A stretch of 64,000 bases of DNA from Aquisalimonas sp. 2447 (GTDB lineage Bacteria > Pseudomonadota > Gammaproteobacteria > Nitrococcales > Aquisalimonadaceae): positions 1,828,501-1,892,500 of the forward strand of contig NZ_CP050695.1 in the NCBI RefSeq assembly GCF_012044895.1, read 5' to 3'. A program made the position numbers and the translations under genes. Under the pieces are notes generated by a model. It had not been told where the DNA came from and made no database searches. It was given only the letters and a program-made list of their open reading frames with translations. Each line of letters opens with the position of its first letter. Within the stretch, counting starts at the first letter, position 1. Of the stretch, positions 12,835-34,103 are shown in pieces.

Positions 12835-15591
12835 TCAATCCCGGTGCGCCAGCAGGTAGTCCTCGGCGTCGGGAGCCGGCAGGGGGTAGGCGAGATAAAA
12901 GCCCTGCGCACCGTGGCATCCCCAGGCAGACAGGCGGTGGCATTGCTCCGCAGTCTCTACGCCCTCCGCGATGGTGCTGAGCCCCAGGCGAATCGCCATG
13001 GTCAGGATCGCCTCGACCACGTCGGCAGAATCGTGGCCGTCGCCTAGCCCCTGAACAAAGGAGCGATCGATCTTGATTGTCTGTAGAGGAAGCTGGGTGA
13101 GATAGGCCAGCGAGGAATATCCGGTTCCGAAATCGTCCAGCGCAATGCTGATGCCGTGTTGCTGGAGAAGGCGGAGCTTGGCAGTGGTATCCGCCATGTG
13201 CCGCACAACCACACCCTCGGTGATTTCCAGATTGAGTCGCTCGCCGGGAACGCCGTAATGGCCGAGGAGTTGCGTTGTTCGCTGGACGAAGTCGGCTTGC
13301 GCAAACTGTGGCGGACTGACGTTGACGCTGATCTGCTGGCCCGGTTGCATCAAGCCGATGTCGATCCAGCGCCGCACAGTCCGTAGTGCCTGGTTCATGA
13401 CCAGGTTCCCCAGGTCGATGATCTGTCCGGTCTGCTCGGCAACCGGGATGAACTCCGCCGGGGAAATCATTCCGCGGGTGGGATGCTCCCAACGCAGCAG
13501 TGCCTCGAAGCCCAGGATTTCCTGCCCTGGCAAAGCCAGGATGGGCTGGTAGCTGAGGTGAAGCTCCTCCATATCCAGTGCGCGTTGCAGGTCCTGCTCC
13601 AGGTCGAGTCGGCGACGTACGTTCTCCCGCATGGCTGGATCGTAGAAGCGCACGACGCCTCGACCGACGCGCTTGCCTGCATACATGGCCGTATCAGCCT
13701 GCCTGAGAACGTCCATGGGGTCAGCGGTGCTGTTGTACGGGAACCCCGTGATGCCGATGCTCAACGTTACGTGGAGGCGATGGCCGTGGGCTTCGATTGG
13801 GACGACCAGCATGTCCAGGAGTTCACTGGCAACGCGCTGAGCTGCTAGTGCCGCGGCCTCCTGATCGTCGCCGAGGTCACCAAGGAGCATGACAAACTCG
13901 TCGCCGCCGATTCGGGCCAGCGTGTCTTCGGCGCGGAGGCGGCCGGACAGGCGTCGCGCCAAGGCCTTGAGAAGCGCGTCGCCGACGGCATGCCCGAGGG
14001 AGTCGTTGATGGCCTTGAACTCGTCCATGTCCATGTAGAGCAGGGCACCGAAACGACCCTGGCGAAGGGCACGCCTGTAATCCATCTCCAGATGGTCGAG
14101 CAGCAGGGTACGGTTCGCCAGGCCCGTGAGCGCGTCCTGGTATGCCAGCTCCCGGATCTTCTCCTCGGACTCCTTCTCGTGACTAATATTCCGGGCAATG
14201 GTGGAGAAGTGCGTGACTTCACCCTGGTCGTCACAGTGAGCGATGATCACCTGTGAGAAGGGGATGCAGCGCCCTTCGCTGTCCACGAATTCCGTCTCCC
14301 CTCCCCAGGTACCCTGCGTTTCGGCGGCTTTGAGTCCCTGAGCCACCTTGCGGCGGCCTTCGCCCGTATGGCAGTCGGGTATGCGCCCCAGGTCCTGCTC
14401 CTGATTCAGAAACCGCCGGGCCGCCGGGTTATGGTAGAGAATACGCCCCTGCGGGTCCGAGATCCCGACAAAGTCCGGCGTTGCCTCAAGGATTTCGACC
14501 AGTCGGCGTCGCTCCTGATGGTGATCGAAGTTGTCCAGCGAAAAGGAGGCATCCATTACCAGTTCGTCGAGCAGATGGAGCAAATCGGAGGTGAAGTAGT
14601 CTTCCTCGTCGGAATAGACGTTGAGGCTGGCAACGACCTCGCCACCGCGGAACACGGGAAAGGCCGCGGAGCTGCGGAGCCCCGCCTCATGGGCGGCCTG
14701 CTGCCATGGGCCCATGGACGGGTCGGTTTGCATGGCATGGACGACCATGCGCCGTTTCTCGCGCATTGCTGTGCCGGTCGGCCCCTGCCCCTCACGCAGA
14801 CGGCCATCAACGCAGATCCGAACGTGGTGGAGGTAATCGCGGGCTGCACCACGGGATGCGACTGGACGGATCCAGCCGGCCTCGTCCGGCATGCCGATCC
14901 AGGCAAGTTGCAGGTGGCCGTAATCCACGGCGACCCGGCAGAGCTGCTCGAACAGCTCCTCTGGCGCCGGCGCTTTCAGTACCACGAGCTGGTTAAACTC
15001 CGATAGCGCCGCGTAGAGATTTCTTTGCCGCCGCAGTGCCTTCTCTGTGGGCGATTCCCCGCTGACGTCCAGTAGTGACAGTGCGACCCCCGCAAGCTTT
15101 CGCTGGCGGCCATGCACCGGACGTGCAGTCACCAGCAGTTGCCCGCATTGCGGTGCCGGCGTCTCGCCCACGCACAGGGTTTGCTCGGCGACAATGCGGC
15201 TGCCCTTGAGCGCCCGCGCTAGGGGGTGCTCGATCTCCGACACAACTGTTGCGCAGTCGCGCTGGTACAGGGGCATTCGGGCGTAAGCCGATTCGCCCAG
15301 TGGTGTTTCCTCCCAACCGAACAGGTCTCTGGCTCGCGGGTTCGCGTGGATGATCCTGGCCTGAGCGTCACAGACGACAACCCCGTGTTCCACGATGTCC
15401 AGGACGCCGGGGTCAATGGAAGGTGAGCTTGCGTCCCGATTCTGGCGATGCGGGCGCAGCGTCCACTCGACACCCTCGTCGCCATGCCCTTCCTGACGGG
15501 TGATTCCGAATCCGGCCGCCTCGAGGCGGTGCCTGATTTCGTCGAGGTCATGTTGGGCCTCATCGTCGAGGCGAATCACAAGCTGGGGCAT
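12835..15591 (-). CDS. PAS-GAF-PAS-GGDEF-EAL c-di-GMP sensor protein
   Basis: A 918-residue protein without clear membrane segments. Order: N-terminal region 1-55, PAS about 60-180, GAF about 200-355, PAS about 365-475, GGDEF about 485-645 (IGGDEFVML, residues 561-569, with the inhibitory RxxD site five residues before it), EAL about 665-915 (FEALLRWEH, DDFGTGYSSLAY). Both catalytic signatures are intact, so it could make and degrade c-di-GMP. The ATG at 15591 (MPQLVIRL) is chosen; an in-frame TTG seven codons upstream is the other candidate, and the ribosome binding site (GGAGG or GAGAG) fits neither ideally. It is transcribed away from the next three c-di-GMP genes. Confidence 0.9.
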   Translation of the reverse strand: MPQLVIRLDDEAQHDLDEIRHRLEAAGFGITRQEGHGDEGVEWTLRPHRQNRDASSPSIDPGVLDIVEHGVVVCDAQARIIHANPRARDLFGWEETPLGESAYARMPLYQRDCATVVSEIEHPLARALKGSRIVAEQTLCVGETPAPQCGQLLVTARPVHGRQRKLAGVALSLLDVSGESPTEKALRRQRNLYAALSEFNQLVVLKAPAPEELFEQLCRVAVDYGHLQLAWIGMPDEAGWIRPVASRGAARDYLHHVRICVDGRLREGQGPTGTAMREKRRMVVHAMQTDPSMGPWQQAAHEAGLRSSAAFPVFRGGEVVASLNVYSDEEDYFTSDLLHLLDELVMDASFSLDNFDHHQERRRLVEILEATPDFVGISDPQGRILYHNPAARRFLNQEQDLGRIPDCHTGEGRRKVAQGLKAAETQGTWGGETEFVDSEGRCIPFSQVIIAHCDDQGEVTHFSTIARNISHEKESEEKIRELAYQDALTGLANRTLLLDHLEMDYRRALRQGRFGALLYMDMDEFKAINDSLGHAVGDALLKALARRLSGRLRAEDTLARIGGDEFVMLLGDLGDDQEAAALAAQRVASELLDMLVVPIEAHGHRLHVTLSIGITGFPYNSTADPMDVLRQADTAMYAGKRVGRGVVRFYDPAMRENVRRRLDLEQDLQRALDMEELHLSYQPILALPGQEILGFEALLRWEHPTRGMISPAEFIPVAEQTGQIIDLGNLVMNQALRTVRRWIDIGLMQPGQQISVNVSPPQFAQADFVQRTTQLLGHYGVPGERLNLEITEGVVVRHMADTTAKLRLLQQHGISIALDDFGTGYSSLAYLTQLPLQTIKIDRSFVQGLGDGHDSADVVEAILTMAIRLGLSTIAEGVETAEQCHRLSAWGCHGAQGFYLAYPLPAPDAEDYLLAHRD

Positions 15592-16062
15592 GACGTGCTC
15601 TCGTACCTCCAACAGGTCGGGAAGTCGCAGTCGTTAGTCACTGGGATGTCACAGCGCGCCGCGCTCCACTGTCTGCAATGAGCGACACCGGGTCAGCGTA
15701 TCAACGGGTTATGCGCGGGGATTGATTCGAATCAAGTAATAGCCAAAATAGAGTACCACTTAAAGGGTACTCGCTTCGCGTTAGAGGATGAAGGGCCCTC
15801 GCAAGAATATGAACGCAGCCTATCGTCCGGTTGAAGACTCATGCCGACGCTTTGGAGAAGCAGCGCGTCATTCCGGTACGTTGTGTTCGGCCATTACGAA
15901 CCGGCGTCGTGGACTGCGGGTGTAGCTGGGCAGACTGCGACTCCGACCAATTGGCTAGCACGAGATGCAGGGAGAGGGACGGATCCGTGTACAATCTCAG
16001 CGCCAAACAGCCGCAGGGGCAGCGCGGAAAGTGTGCCGTTGCATGAAGAGCGAGATCCGATA
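15592..16062. other. Divergent intergenic region between two c-di-GMP genes
   Basis: About 470 bp separate the start of the minus-strand GGDEF-EAL gene from the plus-strand PAS-GGDEF gene. It should carry both promoters. AT-rich stretches (for example AATAGAGTACCACTTAAAGG near 15747) are present, but no hexamer pair is convincing enough to name. An open frame upstream of 16063 exists, but it lacks a ribosome binding site and family likeness. Confidence 0.35.
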
Positions 16063-17025
16063 ATGAGCGCCGGACTCGATTCAAGCGTCTCGGAGGCCTA
16101 TCAACCGTTCACGACGGACTTGATGAGCGGGCTGATCGACAGCCTTGGTGACGCCCTGATCGGCATTAACGCCGAGCAACAGATTGTCCTGTTCAATCGA
16201 GGAGCCGAGGAGTTGTTCGACTACTGCGCCCCCGACGTGCTCGGCCGGCAGTTGGATATCTTGCTGCCACCGGACAACCGCGCAGCCCACGAAGCCCACC
16301 TCGAGACATTCGCGAAGGAAGGTGTCCGTACGCGTCGCATGGGCCACCGGCGGTCGATCCGTGCCAGGCGCGCAGACGGGACTGAGTTTCCCGCTGGTGC
16401 CACCATCAGCGTGGCCGACCTGGATTGCGGGAGAATCTTTTTCGCCGCCGTGCGTGACATCACGCACCATGTGGAGACGCGGAATCACCTCGCGGAATCG
16501 CTGAATGAGCACCAGCGCCTGGCCCGGCTTGACCCTCTGACCGATGTGCTCAATGGACGGGTGTTCAAGAAAGCCATTGAGCAGAGCATCAAAGAACTCC
16601 GGGAAAACGGTGTGCCGTTTACGCTGGTGTTCATCGACGCAGACCGATTCAAGGAAGCGAATGACGTGCATGGTCACGTCTTCGGAGACGAATTGTTGAA
16701 AACCGTTGCGGCCCGTCTGAGCAGCGGTTTCCGCAGCACGGACGTTGTCGCCCGGGTGGGTGGCGACGAATTCGGTGTCCTCATGCCCGACTGCACGGCG
16801 GAGATCGCCCGCACCCGTATCCCCAAGCTGCGCACCGCACTGCTTGCTGACATGCAGGCCATGGGGGCTTCGGTGACGTTCAGTATTGGCGTACTGAACT
16901 GCATTCAGCCCCCAGAGTCCGTCGGAGCGTGCCTGCACGCGGTGGACTCGCTCATGTACAGCATCAAGTATTCCACTGGCGACGGCATCGCTTGGGGGGA
17001 GCTGGACGGCGTTCAGCAAGTATAG
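16063..17025 (+). CDS. PAS-GGDEF diguanylate cyclase
   Basis: A 320-residue soluble protein. A PAS domain at about 18-140 (IDSLGDALIGINAEQQIVLF, DGTEFPAGATIS) is joined to GGDEF at about 155-315. The active loop VGGDEFGVLM is intact and preceded by RSTD, the product-inhibition site. The ATG at 16063 is preceded by the purine-rich GAAGAGCGAG. The usual DPLTGLxNR stretch reads DPLTDVLNGR, a minor deviation. It is the first of three plus-strand c-di-GMP genes. A 304-bp gap with no gene follows. Confidence 0.87.
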   Translation: MSAGLDSSVSEAYQPFTTDLMSGLIDSLGDALIGINAEQQIVLFNRGAEELFDYCAPDVLGRQLDILLPPDNRAAHEAHLETFAKEGVRTRRMGHRRSIRARRADGTEFPAGATISVADLDCGRIFFAAVRDITHHVETRNHLAESLNEHQRLARLDPLTDVLNGRVFKKAIEQSIKELRENGVPFTLVFIDADRFKEANDVHGHVFGDELLKTVAARLSSGFRSTDVVARVGGDEFGVLMPDCTAEIARTRIPKLRTALLADMQAMGASVTFSIGVLNCIQPPESVGACLHAVDSLMYSIKYSTGDGIAWGELDGVQQV

Positions 17026-17329
17026 GGGTGCAGCCGTCCAGAACAGGGCGCAGCACGTGCACGATCTTCGAGTGGGCCATAGTCTTCCGGGCGTCCAGCG
17101 CTGCAATCGCTGTATGCCGCCGGCTGAACTCCCCTTAACCATCCAGTAACTGACGCGGTGCGACGGGGTGGCAAAACCATCGGTCGAGTCGTAGACTTCC
17201 CTCCTCGCAGAGTCCGGAAGATTCGTGGGTCCATTCTGCTTACCACGACGCAATTGCACGGCCCCGCCTTCTTGTCCGGCACAATGTCCAGCTCCTACCC
17301 CCCCGCCGGGGGAATGAAGAATTTGCCGT

Positions 17330-18598
17330 ATGGATCAGGAATTCCACCAGCACCTTGCGGTGCTACTCGTCGAAGACACGCCAAGGGATGCGCAGTTCGT
17401 CACGGATCTCCTGCAGGACGTCGAGGACACCGCGTTCGCGGTGACACGTTGCCGTCGAGTGCAGGAGGCTCTCGAGCGCGTGCGGACGGAGTCCTTCGAT
17501 GTAGTACTGCTTGACCTCGGCCCGCCCGATTCGGATGTTCTGGACGTGGTTCGGCAATTCCGGGACGGGGGAGGGGCCCGCTTGCCTCTGGTCGTCATGA
17601 CCGGTCAACGCCGTCGCGGACTCGGGCAAGAGGTGCTGCAGCTAGGCGCGCAGGACTACCTCCCGAAGGACGACCTGGCACCGGCCATGCTGGAGCGGGT
17701 CCTGCTCTACGCCGTGGAGCGACACCGGACGCAGCGGCGACTGGAACTGCTGTCCGCCGCCTTCAACAGTGGCCAGGGCGTATTCATTACGGATAACCGG
17801 CCGCGCATCATCGAGGTCAACAGAGCCTTCACGGAGATCACCGGCTATCACGCCGAGGAGGTCGTGGGCTGCAATCCGCGGGTTCTCTCCTCCGGTCATC
17901 ATGACGAGGTTTTCTACCAGGCCCTCTGGGAGCGTGTACACCGCGACGGCCAGTGGGCCGGCGAGATCTGGAACCGCCGCCGCGACGGCGAGATCTATCC
18001 GCAGTGGGAATCAATCAGCGCGGTTTCCGATGTCAGCGGTGAAGAGACCCACTACGTCTCCGTCTTCCACGACATCAGCGAACAGAAGCGGCTAGAAACG
18101 GAACTCGAGCGCCTCGCGAGCCGCGATCGCTTGACCAACGCCTACAATCGGCATCGCTTCTACGAGTATCTCGACCAAGCCATGATCGTCTACAAGCGGC
18201 ACGGAACGTCCTTTGCGTTGGTGATGTTCGACCTGGACCACTTCAAGCATGTAAACGATCGCTGGGGCCACCCGGTCGGGGATGCGGTCCTGCGAGAAGT
18301 GGTCCATCGGTGCAACGCGACGCTGCGCGACACGGACTTCCTGAGCCGCTGGGGCGGAGAGGAGTTTCTGGTCCTCGCCAACCATGCGGACGAGGATGCT
18401 GCTGCCGTGCTGGCCGAGCGCCTCCGCGAGGTGGTGGCCGCGACGCCGTTCCCGACCGTCGGGCCGGTCACAATCAGCGCTGGAGTTGTGGTGGTTCATC
18501 CGGAGGAGCGTATTGAAAAGCTTCAGGAACGGGTCGACCGCGCTCTTTACACGGCGAAGGCAGCAGGCCGGAACTGCGTGCGGCTCGCCACCGACTGA
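17330..18598 (+). CDS. Response regulator: REC-PAS-GGDEF diguanylate cyclase
   Basis: A 422-residue protein. The receiver domain at about 8-125 has the acidic pocket (LLVEDTPRDA), the phospho-acceptor aspartate in VVLLDLGPPDSD and the conserved lysine in LPKDD. A PAS domain covers about 140-255 and GGDEF about 260-420, with the active motif GGEEFLVL and an RDTD inhibition site. It should be a phosphorylation-controlled cyclase. No histidine kinase is adjacent, so its partner is elsewhere. Confidence 0.9.
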   Translation: MDQEFHQHLAVLLVEDTPRDAQFVTDLLQDVEDTAFAVTRCRRVQEALERVRTESFDVVLLDLGPPDSDVLDVVRQFRDGGGARLPLVVMTGQRRRGLGQEVLQLGAQDYLPKDDLAPAMLERVLLYAVERHRTQRRLELLSAAFNSGQGVFITDNRPRIIEVNRAFTEITGYHAEEVVGCNPRVLSSGHHDEVFYQALWERVHRDGQWAGEIWNRRRDGEIYPQWESISAVSDVSGEETHYVSVFHDISEQKRLETELERLASRDRLTNAYNRHRFYEYLDQAMIVYKRHGTSFALVMFDLDHFKHVNDRWGHPVGDAVLREVVHRCNATLRDTDFLSRWGGEEFLVLANHADEDAAAVLAERLREVVAATPFPTVGPVTISAGVVVVHPEERIEKLQERVDRALYTAKAAGRNCVRLATD

Positions 18599-18720
18599 GG
18601 GTTGCCGTTCCCGCGGTTGTTCAAGCGTACTCTGTGAACCCGCGCTTGCCGTTGCCCCGCCCCCAGTCCATGGCCTGGTATCGGGTTAACCCGTAAGGGA
18701 CTCGGTCTGCTCTTGCTTTG

Positions 18721-20736
18721 GTGTTACAGTCCGCGCTTCCACAGGCAACCAGTTCGACCAGCTACTTGGCACACCGACGCGTCTGTCTATCCCCAATACG
18801 GATTGTTGGCATCTATCTGGTCGTCAGCGTCCTGTGGATTGCCCTTTCTGACCGCCTGCTTCTCATGACGCTCCCCCAGACTCTGGGGCCGGAGGCCATT
18901 ACCTTCGCGCAGACCATCAAGGGGTGGAGCTTCATTGTCGTCACGGCGGTCATGCTGTGGCTCCTGATCCAGCGCCTCAGTGATCGCCAGGCTCTGATCA
19001 TCGGTGATCTTGAACTCCACAAGCGCATCCTCGAGAACGCTCACAATGGGGTGCTTGTAACCAATGGCAACGGAGAGATCATTTACGTCAATGAAGCCCT
19101 AGAGAGGATTACCGGATACAGACAGGAAGAACTGCTCGGCCGGAACCCCTCGGTGCTGAGCTCGGGATTCCATGACCGGGAGTTTTACCGCCAGATGTGG
19201 GAGACACTGGAGCGTGATCATGCCTGGCAGGGCGAGATCGTCAACCGACGCAAGGACGGCAACCGATTCACCGAATGGATCACGATTACCAAGATCGTCG
19301 ATGGAACCTCCGGAGATGCCCGCTATGTCTCCGTGATCAGCGACATCAGCAAGGCCAAGGCGGATCAGGATCGTCTGCAATACCTGGCGTTCCATGATCC
19401 GCTTACGAGCTTGCCCAACCGCGCCCTGATGCAGGAGCACCTGAAGACGGCACTCCACCAGGCAGCCTTGGAGCGAAACCAGATTGCTGTCCTGTTTCTG
19501 GACCTGGACGACTTCAAGATCATCAATGAAACGCTGGGGCATCAGACGGGAGACCTGATACTCAAGCAGGTTGCCCGCCGCCTGAGCGGCGTTGTTGATG
19601 ATGCCGCTCTCGGACGCTTCAGCGGCGACCAGTTCATTCTGATCACACCAGCGGTCGAGTCGCCGGATCAGGTGGCAGGACTCGCTGAGCGGCTATTGGA
19701 GAGCCTGAGCGAACCACTGCGCCCGCAAGGACACCATCCCATCAGTGTGCGTTGCACCGTGGGCATCACCGTGAGCGACGGCATGCGCGACGTGTCCGAA
19801 GAGGGCCTCGCGTCGCTGCTCAGCGAGGCGGATGCCGCGCTCAATGAGGCCAAAACGAATGGCAAGAATGGGTTCGCCTTTTATAGCAGTGACATGATGG
19901 AGCGTTCCCAGAGACGACTGGAGCTGGAACAGGCCCTGAGTCATGCAATCCAGAACGATGAGTTGCGACTCCACTTTCAGCCCGTTTTCGACGTAGGCTC
20001 CGAGCAACTGGTGGGGGCCGAGGCGTTGTTGCGCTGGGCGCACCCTCACAGAGGGCTGATCTCCCCCGGTGAGTTCATTCCGGTAGCGGAGGAAACCGGG
20101 TTGATTCTGCCTCTCGGCGAGTGGGTCATGCAGGCGCTCATCGGGCAGATCCAACGGTGGCTTGACGCTGGTCTCGACCCTGGCGTGGTCGCATTCAACG
20201 TTGCCTCACGGCAGGTCGCCCAGGGCGAGTTCTCGGCGGCGCTGACGCGGGCTCTCGCAAGCCACGAGCGCGTATCGCACCACCTTGAGGTGGAACTGAC
20301 CGAGAGCGGACTGATGTCACTCGGTGACGGCACCATCGACAAGCTGCACGCTGTCCAATCCAGCGGGGTGAGGCTCGCTGTCGATGATTTCGGAACCGGC
20401 TATTCGTCGTTGGCGTATCTTCGTCGGTTCCCGCTGAACAAACTGAAGATCGACCGCAGTTTCATCGCGGAGCTACATGACGACAACGAGAACGAAGCCA
20501 TCATTCGCGCCATTCTCGCCATGGCGCACACGCTCAACCTCAAGGTTCAGGCCGAAGGGGTGGAAACCCGAGAGCAGCTTTTGCTGCTCCGCGAACTTGG
20601 CTGCGATACCTGGCAGGGGTTTCTGGGGGCAGCGCCTCTGCCGGCAGAGGGTTTCGAAGCCGGTTACTTGCGGACAAGCGCGGCGACCGGGCCATGGCCC
20701 CACGCTGTGCGGGGCGTGACGCAACACCGGACGTGA
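18721..20736 (+). CDS. Membrane PAS-GGDEF-EAL protein with degenerate GGDEF
   Basis: About 671 residues. Two membrane segments at about 25-48 and 65-90 enclose a short periplasmic loop, followed by PAS (about 100-220), GGDEF (about 225-390) and EAL (about 405-650). The cyclase loop reads FSGDQF instead of GGDEF and lacks the RxxD site, so cyclase activity is unlikely. The EAL signatures are intact (AEALLRW, DDFGTGYSSLAY, EGVET), so it is probably a phosphodiesterase. The start is uncertain: TTG 18718 and GTG 18721 are the only candidates before the first membrane helix. Confidence 0.85.
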   Translation: MLQSALPQATSSTSYLAHRRVCLSPIRIVGIYLVVSVLWIALSDRLLLMTLPQTLGPEAITFAQTIKGWSFIVVTAVMLWLLIQRLSDRQALIIGDLELHKRILENAHNGVLVTNGNGEIIYVNEALERITGYRQEELLGRNPSVLSSGFHDREFYRQMWETLERDHAWQGEIVNRRKDGNRFTEWITITKIVDGTSGDARYVSVISDISKAKADQDRLQYLAFHDPLTSLPNRALMQEHLKTALHQAALERNQIAVLFLDLDDFKIINETLGHQTGDLILKQVARRLSGVVDDAALGRFSGDQFILITPAVESPDQVAGLAERLLESLSEPLRPQGHHPISVRCTVGITVSDGMRDVSEEGLASLLSEADAALNEAKTNGKNGFAFYSSDMMERSQRRLELEQALSHAIQNDELRLHFQPVFDVGSEQLVGAEALLRWAHPHRGLISPGEFIPVAEETGLILPLGEWVMQALIGQIQRWLDAGLDPGVVAFNVASRQVAQGEFSAALTRALASHERVSHHLEVELTESGLMSLGDGTIDKLHAVQSSGVRLAVDDFGTGYSSLAYLRRFPLNKLKIDRSFIAELHDDNENEAIIRAILAMAHTLNLKVQAEGVETREQLLLLRELGCDTWQGFLGAAPLPAEGFEAGYLRTSAATGPWPHAVRGVTQHRT

Positions 20737-21419: not shown

Positions 21420-21660
21420 CGCTCACCTCCTAGAGGTATGCGCTTCCAAGAAAATGTTTACCCCTTAGTCGACCCATGGGTACACGGTAGGTACACAGAT
21501 GTTGCGAAACCCGAGCAAGACGAGGGGGCTGAGTTGGAAAATCGAGATTAGTCGACCCATGGGTACACCAGAGGTACACAGAGAGCGATCTTCAGGAGTG
21601 ATGCCGCGTTTATGGGTCGCTGCTGTCACGGTTCGACTGGTCACTTGCAATAAATAGCGA
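21420..21660 (-). other. Conserved non-coding block upstream of the iscB remnant (possible omega-RNA region)
   Basis: This lies directly upstream of the iscB start, where IscB loci carry their guide omega RNA. It contains the repeat TTAGTCGACCCATGGGTACA at 21465 and again at 21548, each followed by a GGTACACAGA motif, implying an internal tandem duplication of about 83 bp. A single related copy stands at 32704-32790, 11 kb away, without any iscB. Conservation between the copies supports a functional or mobile non-coding sequence. Assignment as omega RNA rests on position only. Confidence 0.35.
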
Positions 21661-21677
21661 TTCAAAGCCGGTCGTTT

Positions 21678-21726
21678 TGCATGTTTGCCGGGGGCGGCGA
21701 TGGGATAATGCTGTCCTTGCAAAAAA
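21678..21726 (+). promoter_or_regulatory. Conserved leader before hairpin array A
   Basis: The leader TTGCATG...GCCGGGGGCGGCGATGGGATAATGCTG (shortened here) precedes the first hairpin. Near-identical sequence precedes copy C (32873-32922), and a diverged form precedes copy B (28556-28598). The element GGATAATG resembles a -10 box, but no -35 at normal spacing is clear. Conservation of 40 or more bases outside any gene suggests a promoter or a protein-binding site for the array. Confidence 0.4.
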
Positions 21727-21729
21727 TAA

Positions 21730-22250
21730 GCAAATTCCCCTTCTCTAGGGAGGGGGAATTTGCAAAGAATACAGGAGGCAGATAAAAGCCTTCAAAATCA
21801 ATTACGTAGAGATGTTGCTTTGGGGTCTTGCAAACCGTACAAAAATTCCCCTTCCCTAGAGAAGGGGAATTTTTCAAGACTACAGGAGACAGATAAACGC
21901 CAGTAAAATCAGGGACTTATAGATTCTGCTCTGGGCTCGCGCAAAACGTACAAAAATTCCCCTTCTCTAGGGAAGGGGAATTTTCAAGAGTAAACAGTTG
22001 GCCAGAATAAATCGCAAAAACAATTACTTATAGCCTGACTAGCTAGGTCATTGGAAAAATCATGGAAAATTCCCCTTCTCTAGGGAAGGGGAATTTTGAG
22101 AGGAAAAAGAATGCACGAAAAAAATTTCGTAAAAACCGGTAGTTACGCCTCTGCGCAAAATGGTCAAAGGGTTTTGCTAAAACATTCCCCTCCTCTGCGC
22201 GCGCGCAGGGAAGGGGAATTTAAGAAATTCCCCCCAAGGCAGTAGGAGGG
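21730..22250 (+). repeat. Hairpin array A (five long hairpins plus terminal hairpin)
   Basis: Hairpins lie at 21730-21763, 21841-21874, 21953-21984, 22066-22097 and 22184-22219; centre spacings are 111, 111, 113 and 120. The core arms are TTCCCC...GGGGAA around TTCTCTAGGGAA. The fifth hairpin is topped by an alternating GC stem. About 47-50 nt after each of the first four centres stands an A-rich box followed by TTAC/TTA (AAAAACAATTACTTATAG is the clearest, at 22016). A last small hairpin, 22229-22250, has stem CCCCCC/GGAGGG and loop AAGGCAGTA. The region is AT-rich between stems and open to no gene. Two related arrays occur at 28.6 and 32.9 kb. It may be an oriT-like DNA element or a structured RNA; its function is unknown. 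Confidence 0.9.
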
Positions 22251-22256
22251 ACAGGT

Positions 22257-22733
22257 ATGGAGTACAGTCAAATAGAGGAAAGTCTCGATCAGAAGGAGCG
22301 TGAGATTGCGGAGACCGCGAATCACTACGCAAGCGAGTTCTGGAATAGCCACTACAGCGGTAACGCTGAGCGTCCAAAGCATGAAAGAAGCCATCTCGGC
22401 GTAAGGGTCAGGCACCGGCCGAACACAGGAAACCTCGAGATTTTCTGGGTTCGCTTTTCATGGGTTCAATCAAAGGATGGCAAGAATCACCTCCGCTCCG
22501 AGCATCTCCGGAAGGGTGTGTCCAGCCATGGGGACTCGGAGACGAAGCTTCTTCGGTATGCCCAGGAGTGGGAGCGCGAACTGGTTCTTGAGGTCGAGCG
22601 GAACTTTACGCGCCTGCGCGAAGAGTTCGCGTCGGTCCGTAAAGCGAGGGTCCCTCTCCGCAAGGCGCGCAAGCTGTCAGCGGAAGGGGGTATTGGTAGC
22701 ACCAACAAAGAGAGTGAGAACACTGATGAGTGA
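22257..22733 (+). CDS. MobI-like conjugative transfer protein
   Basis: A 158-residue polar, helical protein. The start ATG at 22257 has AGGAGG at 22243-22248, inside the terminal hairpin of array A. The pattern (EFWNSH near the N terminus, LGVRVRHRP, LEIFWVRFSW, YAQEWERELVLEVERNFTRL near the C-terminal half) resembles MobI of SXT/R391 and IncA/C elements, the auxiliary factor whose gene lies beside oriT. I rate this similarity as suggestive, not proven. The start region recurs after arrays B and C in broken form. It overlaps the next gene by 8 bases. Confidence 0.5.
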   Translation: MEYSQIEESLDQKEREIAETANHYASEFWNSHYSGNAERPKHERSHLGVRVRHRPNTGNLEIFWVRFSWVQSKDGKNHLRSEHLRKGVSSHGDSETKLLRYAQEWERELVLEVERNFTRLREEFASVRKARVPLRKARKLSAEGGIGSTNKESENTDE

Positions 22734-23241
22734 AGAGACGATTTTCAACAAAACCACACGGCCGGCGAAGCGCTCCTTCTGGCGTGCGTGGCTCCTGGTC
22801 CTTATCGGCGCAGTCATGGCACTGGCGCCTCAGTTGGTCGGCGCTTTAACGATCGCCGGTCTGAACGCGCTGATCGAGGTTGCTCCGGATGGGAGGATTG
22901 CCGGGGTGATCGCGGGAGGGAGTGACATCATCCGTTACGTCGGTCTTGGCGTTGCGGGCTATGGCCTCGTGATCGTGATCGGGTACCAGTGGCTCGCCAA
23001 CCGGTACGTTGTCACGCCAACGGATGTCAGCGAGGTCTACGGCCTGATCGCCAAGAAGAAAAACACCACCAAGCTGGCACACATCCGGCGCGTCGGCGTT
23101 CATCAAACCATAATCGGGCGCATTCTCGGGTATGGCGACGTGCTGTACTACTCCGCTGGGACGGGTATACGGTTAATCGGAATGGGTGGTCACGATGGGC
23201 CGGAATACGCAAGCGTCCGAGGGTCGGCTCTTGGGCTCTGA
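22726..23241 (+). CDS. Membrane protein with bacterial PH domain (YdbS-like)
   Basis: A 171-residue protein. Two hydrophobic segments at about 18-45 and 58-90 are followed by a bPH2-type domain (NRYVVTPTDVSEVYGLIAKK, HIRRVGVHQTIIGRILGYGD). The ATG at 22726 overlaps the end of the mobI-like gene (ATGAGTGA), so the two are translationally coupled. Such PH proteins are inner-membrane components of unknown role. Together with array A the two genes form the only intact module in the window. Confidence 0.72.
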   Translation: MSEETIFNKTTRPAKRSFWRAWLLVLIGAVMALAPQLVGALTIAGLNALIEVAPDGRIAGVIAGGSDIIRYVGLGVAGYGLVIVIGYQWLANRYVVTPTDVSEVYGLIAKKKNTTKLAHIRRVGVHQTIIGRILGYGDVLYYSAGTGIRLIGMGGHDGPEYASVRGSALGL

Positions 23242-23676: not shown

Positions 23677-23732
23677 TGCAACTTGTTGCATAATGATGCC
23701 TCGGCATCACGTTGTATGCAACAAGTTGCATA
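23677..23732. promoter_or_regulatory. Palindromic operator region between DUF2306 and padR genes
   Basis: Three palindromes lie in 56 bases: TGCAAC-TT-GTTGCA (23677-23690), GATGCC-TC-GGCATC (23695-23708) and TATGCAAC-AA-GTTGCATA (23715-23732). The outer two share the TGCAAC/GTTGCA arms and flank the middle one. The right one ends 10 bases before the padR ATG. They are likely PadR dimer sites giving autoregulation and control of the divergent gene. Confidence 0.6.
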
Positions 23733-24537: not shown

Positions 24538-25206
24538 ATGTGCGGGCGATTCGTAAGCAAGACCGATGCGGCCATCGAGCGGGCGTTCAACGTGATTCCC
24601 CGCGAGTGGACCCATGACTGGGTCAAGTACAACGTTGCGCCCACACAGAACGTGCCCGTGATCCGGCTGGCTAATGGGCAGCGTGAAGGGGTGATGCTGC
24701 GCTGGGGACTTGTCCCGGCGTGGGCCAAAGGGCAGCCGACGAAGTACAGCACGATCAACGCCCGCGCCGAGACAGTAGAGACAGCTGCCACATACCGGAG
24801 CCCTTGGAAGCGCGCTCAGCGCTGCATCATCCCGGCAATCGGATACTACGAGTGGCAAGAGGTCGCTGGGGGGAAACAGCCGTACTTAATTCGGCTCGCC
24901 GGCGGAGAGCCATTCGGATTCTGCGGACTGTGGGAAACATCGGTTGGGCCTGATGGAGGGACGGTTGAGTCGTGCACGATCATTACCGTTTCCGCCAATC
25001 CCATGGTCGCGCAGATCCACGCCAAGGCGCGGATGCCGGCGATGGTTACGCCTGAGTATTGCGGTGTCTGGCTTGAAGGCTCTAGCAGTGATGCCCGAGA
25101 GGTGCTGGGGCCGTTCCCCGTCGAGCTGATGGACGCCTACCCGGTGAGCACACGCGTGAACTCCCCCCGGAACGACAGCCCAGAGCTTCTAGAGCGCGTA
25201 GCGTAG
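24538..25206 (+). CDS. SOS response-associated peptidase (SRAP/YedK/HMCES family)
   Basis: A 222-residue protein starting MCGRF, so Cys2 becomes the N-terminal catalytic residue that crosslinks to abasic sites in single-stranded DNA. Other conserved residues are visible: NARAE (Asn74), YYEW (Glu105) and the histidine in QIHAKARMP (His161). No LexA box is evident upstream. A C-terminal fragment of a second SRAP gene lies at 33930-34103 beyond array C, suggesting that this part of the island was duplicated. SRAP genes are frequent in mobile elements. Confidence 0.92.
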   Translation: MCGRFVSKTDAAIERAFNVIPREWTHDWVKYNVAPTQNVPVIRLANGQREGVMLRWGLVPAWAKGQPTKYSTINARAETVETAATYRSPWKRAQRCIIPAIGYYEWQEVAGGKQPYLIRLAGGEPFGFCGLWETSVGPDGGTVESCTIITVSANPMVAQIHAKARMPAMVTPEYCGVWLEGSSSDAREVLGPFPVELMDAYPVSTRVNSPRNDSPELLERVA

Positions 25207-28316: not shown

Positions 28317-28607
28317 ACCGGGAAACAAGCGGAGCTTGAAGCGCTCATGGCAACGATGAAGCAGGCGATCGAGGCCTCTTTGGCGGAAGAGTCGTAAAGG
28401 CGGCCATTTCCTGACCCACGAACGACTCGAGCCCATAAACTGCCCGGGTAGAGAGCGACCCAGGCACTCCGGAAACAGCGTGCTCTGACCGCGAGCCTCA
28501 CCCCGCACGAAACGCGTCATCGCTCAGCCTCCCTTGTACTCCAGCGATTGTGCATGTGTGACGGGGGCGGCGGTTGGATGATGCTGTCCTTGTAAAGAAA
28601 AGCCGAA

Positions 28608-29019
28608 AATTTCCCTTCTCTAGAGAAGGGAAATTCTTGAAGAAAATCATGGTTCGCCGAAATGAGAATGAAAAACAGAGACTTACAGAATATAGAGGTG
28701 ATGGCGTTGATAAATCTTTGAAAACTTCCCTTCTCTAGAGAAGGGAAAATTGAGGATGAAAGCGCGAAAATCCATAAAATCCATTAAAAACATATAGATA
28801 GAGATATTGCGCTGACAGCCCCGGCAACACTAAACAAACTTCCCTTCTCTAGAGAAGGGAAGTTTGTTGGGAGAAAGGCTGGTGGAGTGATTATCTTTCA
28901 AAAACAGACGGTTATGACGTCGATACAATTGGGCGCAGTAGCTGCAAAAAAACTTTCCCTCCTCCGCGCGCGCGCAGAGAAGGGAAATTAAAAAGATTTC
29001 CCCAAAGGCAGTAGGGGGG
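28608..29019 (+). repeat. Hairpin array B (four long hairpins plus terminal hairpin)
   Basis: Hairpins lie at 28608-28635, 28726-28747, 28833-28868 (a perfect 36-bp palindrome) and 28954-28987; centre spacings are 115, 114 and 120. The stems read TTCCC...GGGAA around TTCTCTAGAGAA, so they are one C-G pair shorter than in arrays A and C throughout. A-rich boxes follow (AAAAACAGAGACTTACAG at 28671). The last hairpin has an alternating GC top as in A and C. A final small hairpin (TTCCCC, loop AAAGGCAGTA, GGGGGG) precedes a GTG start at 29025. The diverged leader lies at 28556-28598. Confidence 0.88.
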
Positions 29020-29024
29020 AAGAG

Positions 29025-32703: not shown

Positions 32704-32922
32704 CAGCTCCTGGAGGTATGCGCTTTCAAGAAAATGTTTACCCCTCAGTCGACCCACGGGTACACCAGAGATACACAGAGGTCGCGCTCCAGGGGCTATG
32801 CCGCTTGTGCCCGTCGCTGCCGCCTGGGGCTCATCTGTTTCATGCAATAAGTAGCGATCAAAAGGCGGGCGCTTTGCATGATTGCCGGGGGCGGCGATGG
32901 GATAATGCTGTCCTTGTAAAAA
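32704..32922. other. Second copy of the conserved non-coding block and array leader
   Basis: It matches 21426-21726 in order: TCCTGGAGGTATGCGCTTTC, GAAAATGTTTACCCC, one GTCGACCCACGGGTACAC unit (two in copy A), then TGCAATAA-TAGCGAT and the leader GCCGGGGGCGGCGATGGGAT. The match to copy A starts just where the iscB ribosome binding site lies in copy A, but no iscB sequence is present here. The likeness continues into hairpin array C. Confidence 0.6.
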
Positions 32923-33344: not shown

Positions 33345-33395
33345 ACGGATTAGGGTCAGATAGAGGAGAGTCTCGATCAGAAGGAGCGCGAGATA
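33345..33395 (+). pseudogene. Broken mobI-like start after array C
   Basis: The sequence aligns with the first 17 codons of the intact mobI-like gene at nucleotide level (CAGATAGAGGAGAGTCTCGA and on), but the ATG is ACG and codon 3 is TAG. Likeness stops at about 33393, where IS5-type sequence begins. The gene is therefore dead by three separate lesions. Confidence 0.7.
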
Positions 33396-33414
33396 GTCCG
33401 TCCTGGATAACCCT

Positions 33415-33929: not shown

Positions 33930-34103
33930 ATGCCGGCCATGGTAACTCCGGAGCAGGGCGATGCGTGGCTTGAAGGCTCGGGTGACGATGCCCGGGCGGC
34001 GCTGGCGCCGTTCCCGGCCGAACTGATGGATGCCTATCCGGTAAGCACCCGTGTTAATTCCCCGCGGAATGAGGGCCCCGAGCTTCTCGATCGCGTCGCG
34101 TAG
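33930..34103 (+). pseudogene. SRAP C-terminal fragment
   Basis: 57 codons read MPAMVTPEQGDAWLEGSGDD and on to SRVNSPRN-type sequence ending LLDRVA, closely related to the last 58 residues of the intact SRAP protein encoded at 24538-25206. The upstream part is replaced by the IS5 remnant. This supports an old duplication of the array-to-SRAP block. Confidence 0.85.

Follow-up and report, generated by a model that had tools for sequence, protein, structure and literature searches.

The locus and its features

The window, by which we mean the whole stretch of DNA analysed (64 kb), contains a module made up of an array of palindromes, a mobI gene and a gene for a PH-domain membrane protein, referred to here as copy A. 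Its features are as follows.

21423..21716, plus strand: leader block common to copies A and C, in pieces of 87% and 77% identity (sequence comparison, direct reading)
21465-21499 and 21548-21582, plus strand: 35-bp repeat, TTAGTCGACCCATGGGTACAC..GGTACACAGA, present twice in the leader (direct reading)
21690..21720, plus strand: block kept in copies A, B and C (GGGGGCGGCGATGGGATAATGCTGTCCTTG), perhaps an extended -10 promoter for mobI transcription (alignment)
21731..21762, no strand: palindrome 1 of array A (palindrome search)
21841..21874, no strand: palindrome 2 of array A, its centre inverted relative to palindromes 1, 3 and 4 (palindrome search)
21952..21984, no strand: palindrome 3 of array A (palindrome search)
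22065..22097, no strand: palindrome 4 of array A (palindrome search)
22184..22220, no strand: fifth hairpin, with a GC-alternating centre (TGCGCGCGCGCA) and outer arms as in palindromes 1-4
22213..22233, no strand: overlapping alternative palindrome GGGGAATTTAAGAAATTCCCC (palindrome search, alignment)
22257..22733, plus strand: mobI (PF19456), 158 aa, intact (profile match; AlphaFold2 model, pLDDT 88.5)
22726..23241, plus strand: gene for a bPH_2 membrane protein, overlapping mobI by 8 nt; the protein resembles its relatives up to about residue 147 (near 23166)
23161..23214, no strand: remnant resembling an IS21-family end region, which supplies the C-terminus of the PH protein (84-89% matches to three plasmids)

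The DNA directly 5' of the module (12835-20736) encodes, by sequence reading, several GGDEF/EAL and PAS-GGDEF proteins. On the other side, at 23677-23730, a PadR-like regulator gene is preceded by a divergent promoter region with a 16-bp perfect inverted repeat, TGCAACTTGTTGCATA, a probable operator. Within the leader, the copies of the 35-bp direct repeat are 83 bp apart, 5' of the palindromes, and the repeat occurs once in copy C, near 32747-32786; its position is like that of the parM-proximal direct repeats on a Marinobacter plasmid described below, which makes a relic partition site a possible reading.

The 158-residue product of the open reading frame at 22257-22733 matches the MobI profile PF19456 with 92.9 bits (cut-off 26.6; E=1.9e-26), its residues 19-134 aligning with profile positions 3-115. 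The preliminary description of this DNA, made from the letters alone, had noted a resemblance to MobI in the motifs and called for a profile search; FWNSHYS, LGVRVR, WVRFSW and AQEWERELV are all present, and the search places the protein above the curated cut-off of the family. Two outcomes had been named as refuting its interpretation, namely no match to MobI and homologues that never occur near transfer genes. Neither is seen: the protein matches PF19456, and homologues lie beside transfer genes on the Marinobacter plasmid and in locus L032.

The 3.97-Mb genome encodes no other MobI. The window protein is 32% identical to the MobI of the Marinobacter sp. SBY-1 plasmid (E=2e-11), which in turn is 28-29.5% identical to IncC MobI (E about 1e-7), and a direct comparison with IncC MobI also gives a match (E=5e-10). 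Scans of single MobI proteins against the genome contigs and viral contigs gave no relatives, and neither did a search of the PDB by sequence with the MobI profile as query. The AlphaFold2 model consists of a helix, three strands and two helices; Foldseek and VIA-align 2 returned nothing for it at E<=0.001, merely middling coiled-coil arrangements and no match to a DNA-binding fold, and we therefore take no mechanism from the fold. As of the 2017 paper on the IncA/C oriT, the exact role of MobI was not established (PMC5587640).

An array in the position of a transfer origin

The mobI gene sits directly 3' of a repeat-rich intergenic region, array A, whose palindromes 1-4 are near-perfect, 28-34 bp long (AAATTCCCCTTCTCTAGGGAAGGGGAATTT) and spaced at 111, 111 and 113 bp. 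The array pattern has 16 matches in the window compared with 0 in 100 shuffles, and five palindromes lie 5' of mobI compared with at most one in 60 shuffles. The block is AT-rich, with 46.7% GC against 61.9% for the window. At its mobI end, an additional half-site beside the ribosome-binding region of mobI pairs with the last arm to form the alternative palindrome GGGGAATTTAAGAAATTCCCC.

The oriT of IncC plasmids was placed experimentally directly 5' of mobI, where it overlaps the mobI promoter in an AT-rich region built from inverted as well as direct repeats; transfer was abolished when either oriT or mobI was deleted, and the nic site had not been found as of that work (PMC5587640). Array A occupies the same position and likewise combines inverted and direct repeats with AT-rich sequence, in line with the preliminary description. 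Judged by this position, the array is most likely the oriT, or a large part of the oriT, of a lost IncC-like element.

The chief rival, which we consider unlikely, is that the array is a transcribed leader, whose hairpins would act as attenuators or be processed to a small RNA that controls mobI or participates in transfer. A conserved block with GATAAT precedes the array in copies A and C (GATGAT in copy B), mutually exclusive hairpins adjoin the mobI start, and SGI1 offers a precedent in sgm-sRNA, which is encoded between mpsA and oriT and is needed (PMC9299015). Palindromes followed by T runs also resemble two-way terminators, at 11 sites compared with a shuffle mean of 2.0, an excess that is a direct outcome of the palindromes themselves. 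Against a leader RNA, both strands carry the palindromes in near-perfect form and palindrome 2 has an inverted centre, as expected of DNA sites and not of one RNA strand; the arm sequences are wholly different between elements; and an Rfam search gave no family at its gathering score. A consensus promoter scan made no call at 21690..21720, so the GGGGGCGGCGATGGGATAATGCTGTCCTTG block is treated here as a putative promoter.

Two broken copies and the distribution of the array

Arrays B and C lie 7 and 11 kb from array A, all three within 12 kb, and each is followed by what is left of a mobI gene.

28548..29024, plus strand: array B, three palindromes and a GC-centred hairpin, with arms TTTCCC/GGGAAA instead of TTCCCC/GGGGAA
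29025..29069, plus strand: broken start of a second mobI, reading VHYDKIDDLLYSRE and then a stop, after 14 codons
32703..33344, plus strand: array C, with leader, three palindromes and a GC-centred hairpin, 77-87% identical to A
33345..33398, plus strand: mobI remnant of copy C, with start ACG and a stop at codon 3, ending after about 17 codons
33418-33744, minus strand: transposase fragment (DDE_Tnp_1_6) near the point at which the mobI of copy C is cut

Array C aligns with array A in three pieces, and in this alignment conservation is higher in the palindromes (131/136) than in the flanking DNA (267/337; Fisher p=6e-7). The swap to TTTCCC/GGGAAA in array B affects both arms of the sites, and the alternative palindrome of the GGGGAATTTAAGAAATTCCCC type that it retains beside mobI carries matching changes on its two sides. 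Such joint changes would be expected from co-evolution with a diverged binding protein. Behind copy A lies an intact SRAP (HMCES/YedK-type) gene (24538-25206), and behind copy C a 174-bp SRAP fragment (33930-34103) with 78% identity at the DNA level, as if SRAP had been duplicated with the module.

Beyond these three places the array pattern occurs neither in the rest of the genome nor in 53 further genomes of the order, indicating that the segment was probably acquired; viral contigs also lack the exact pattern. This distribution bears on a further explanation, a chromosomal REP- or MITE-like repeat family unrelated to transfer, which would suit three copies lying within 12 kb, none of them surrounded by transfer genes. 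We regard it as exceedingly improbable given the three places in the genome, the absence from the genomes of the order and from the viral contigs, and the fact that every copy ends at a mobI start, and we rejected a REP-like repeat because the array is confined to the three mobI copies.

Related modules on conjugative plasmids

The complete plasmid NZ_CP152382 of Marinobacter sp. SBY-1 carries mobI-PH-UvrD-ERCC4 behind its own mirror-repeat array. Its transfer set comprises MobH relaxase, TraD, TraC, TraN, TraU, TraFHG and FlhCD-type activators, and the plasmid is typed as non-mobilizable by MOB-suite. At locus L032, TraF-TraH-TraG lie about 4 kb before array-mobI-PH-UvrD. MOBH relaxase or F-type transfer genes accompany MobI homologues on the Marinobacter plasmid and at L032, L033, L031 and L043; to our knowledge, the MobI systems described to date rely on relaxases of the MOBH class.

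A parM gene is divergent from mobI in IncC, the Marinobacter plasmid, L039, L040, L057 and L061, an arrangement that would fit a partition (centromere-like) site for a ParM/StbA filament system, which is often divergent from mobI. On the Marinobacter plasmid, however, direct repeats of its own (GGTCTACTGAGCGTACC) adjoin parM, separate from the mirror repeats that adjoin mobI, and no ParM was detected in the window or at L032, which both retain array and mobI. For these reasons we rejected a ParM centromere, and a partition site seems quite improbable as an account of the array.

Repeats before mobI in other elements

We compared the DNA 5' of mobI at 22 loci, counting 9-mers that occur three or more times against dinucleotide shuffles over a span of 600 bp (500 bp for one plasmid set). 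Repeats exceeded every shuffle at 17 of the 22 loci, with sequences specific to each element; L035, L036, L042, L043 and L044 had no such excess. Before mobI, the Sulfuricystis plasmid (L039) has TTCCTCACCATTATGGTGAGGAA four times, Acidovorax and Diaphorobacter plasmids have CATCCTATTAGGATG units, and a Delftia plasmid has a hairpin with 20-bp arms. Repeats alone are not specific to mobI, because tiles elsewhere in some loci also carry them, and with five blanks and the near-duplicate pairs L037/L038, L059/L060 and L056/L057 among the loci, arrays before mobI are a strong tendency and not a rule. The most enriched 5-mer 5' of mobI is GGAAA/TTTCC, raised in 6 of 15 loci and marginal after an estimated correction for the number of 5-mers; as a lead only, it may be a core common to MobI sites.

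The membrane PH protein behind MobI

As the preliminary description had noted, the gene behind mobI is coupled to it, starting at 22726 inside the mobI end. The protein matches bPH_2 (PF03703) with 40 bits (curated cut-off 22; E=4.7e-10) and is hydrophobic in two stretches, near residues 20-45 and 67-86. Among the loci examined, the order mobI-PH occurs in three unrelated elements (the window, the Marinobacter plasmid and L032), and the PH protein of the window is 36-38% identical to that of Marinobacter and 33-34% identical to that of L032. Further relatives are found on Halomonas plasmids, with F-type pilus genes within about 5 kb in pHAL1, and on an Aromatoleum plasmid, where the PH gene adjoins TraG. 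In plasmids of the methanotrophs Methylobacter and Methylomonas (L062/L065), which MOB-suite types as non-mobilizable, a related PH gene lies directly before mobH-traD.

Since bPH_2 is a broad family, any role of this protein is assigned through association with its neighbours. Depending on the element, its gene adjoins either mobI or the relaxase gene, which suggests that the membrane PH protein is part of the transfer machinery, in the relaxosome or in coupling. It had been put forward as a partner new to MobI systems: the pairing is real and recurrent, and as to its novelty, the literature searched, which covers few subscription journals, holds no paper linking a PH protein with MobI.

Decay of the module and its present state

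Copy A had been described as intact, which is correct for the array and mobI but not for the PH gene, where the similarity to relatives is lost after about residue 147. The IS21-like remnant found there has a match in pMAQU01, a plasmid of Marinobacter nauticus VT8, where the matching sequence lies outside istA at a distance of about 165 bp. The simplest reading is that the PH gene was truncated at an IS21-type end and that the UvrD and ERCC4 genes were lost. The proteins of the Marinobacter plasmid, compared with the window, matched no transfer genes there besides mobI and PH, no integrase was found in the window by eye among open reading frames of at least 180 aa or by phmmer with the Marinobacter plasmid integrase, and F-type TraH is absent from the genome.

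The preliminary description had proposed that the arrays are transfer origins of a mobilisable island and suggested a search for a helper relaxase. The sole MOBH relaxase found in the genome lies about 1 Mb away at L045 (C1:812501-832500), where a relaxase (TraI_2, TraI_2_C) is accompanied by its own tyrosine integrase and an ArdC anti-restriction gene; it is another mobile element or its remains. No T4SS was recognised by eye in the 20 kb of this locus, nor a matching F-type set. An island that is still active, with array A (perhaps also C) as oriT for a helper in the same genome, could draw on this gene, relaxases of its class being those used by MobI systems so far, yet the distance, the integrase and ArdC of its own and the lack of a recognised T4SS make such an arrangement very improbable. 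The mobilisable island of the preliminary description is not supported: these comparisons found no integrase or further transfer gene in the 64 kb, TraH is absent, the PH gene is truncated and copies B and C are broken.

The module is probably not self-mobile; at most it is possibly an oriT target in cis for an incoming, matching helper. If it still has a function, the chromosome would be mobilised passively by a matching element that enters the cell, or mobI would be autoregulated.

A probable relic oriT-mobI module and its possible mechanism

We propose, with a probability of roughly 0.74, that the locus is a relic oriT-mobI module of an element of the IncC/SXT kind, with MobI acting on the arms of the array and the PH protein as a tether, copy A being the least damaged. 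For this module we computed the identity of MobI and of the PH protein, the array, the recurrence of array-mobI and of mobI-PH, the PH-mobH-traD neighbourhood and the decay. From these sequence patterns we infer the arms as MobI sites, the array as oriT and the PH protein as a relaxosome tether. The source would have been a conjugative element with a MOBH relaxase and an F-type pilus, of which three copies of the module are left in the chromosome. MobI would bind the repeated arms (AAATTCCCCT, AAATTCCCC), which form mirror pairs about 111 bp apart; once on the array, MobI would place the MOBH relaxase on oriT, with the PH protein keeping the MobI-relaxase complex membrane-bound close to the coupling protein TraD.

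More tentatively, and at somewhat under even odds, MobI-type transfer origins may form a diverse class of arrays whose mirror sites are long and element-specific (with a common core near TTTCC/ATTCC) and are recognised by MobI as repeated units, to which a PH protein is added as a relaxosome part.

IncC plasmids and SXT/R391 ICEs are major carriers of multidrug resistance, and MobI is essential for their transfer. Arrays that differ in sequence across the family supply testable candidate binding sites for MobI, and they offer a way to locate transfer origins of MOBH elements missed by typing tools; several of the plasmids compared are typed as non-mobilizable by MOB-suite. The PH protein is a candidate membrane partner for the relaxosome, and if its association with mobI or mobH-traD has this meaning, it would be a previously unrecognised relaxosome part at the membrane.

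Comparison with known transfer systems

The module resembles IncC (IncA/C) plasmids in its MobI family and in the AT-rich repeats directly 5' of mobI, and the 14-bp repeats of IncC (AAATTCCAGATAG) share an AAATTCC core with the window array. The IncC oriT spans about 150 bp of short repeats, a mixture of inverted and direct ones, whereas the window has five long palindromes, more regular, over about 490 bp. IncC has a divergent parM and the window has none; behind mobI, IncC has a 95-aa open reading frame without a Pfam match and then repB, in place of the PH gene. In SXT/R391 ICEs, mobI likewise adjoins oriT and is needed for transfer (as reported in PMC5587640), but no integrase or SXT backbone was found around the window copy. 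Islands of the MGI and SGI1 types, which copy the oriT of SXT/R391 or IncC, are similar in being oriT-like chromosomal DNA away from transfer genes; they differ in carrying an integrase and attachment sites, and SGI1 in carrying unrelated mobilisation genes, and neither an integrase nor such mobilisation genes were found in the window. The Marinobacter SBY-1 plasmid shares the order of mobI and PH with overlapping ends and an upstream mirror-repeat array whose last hairpin has a GC-rich centre; its arms read GGGTAGG, and its operon continues into UvrD helicase and ERCC4 nuclease genes that are absent in the window. The window module is a relic of a type already known, set apart by its distinctive array.
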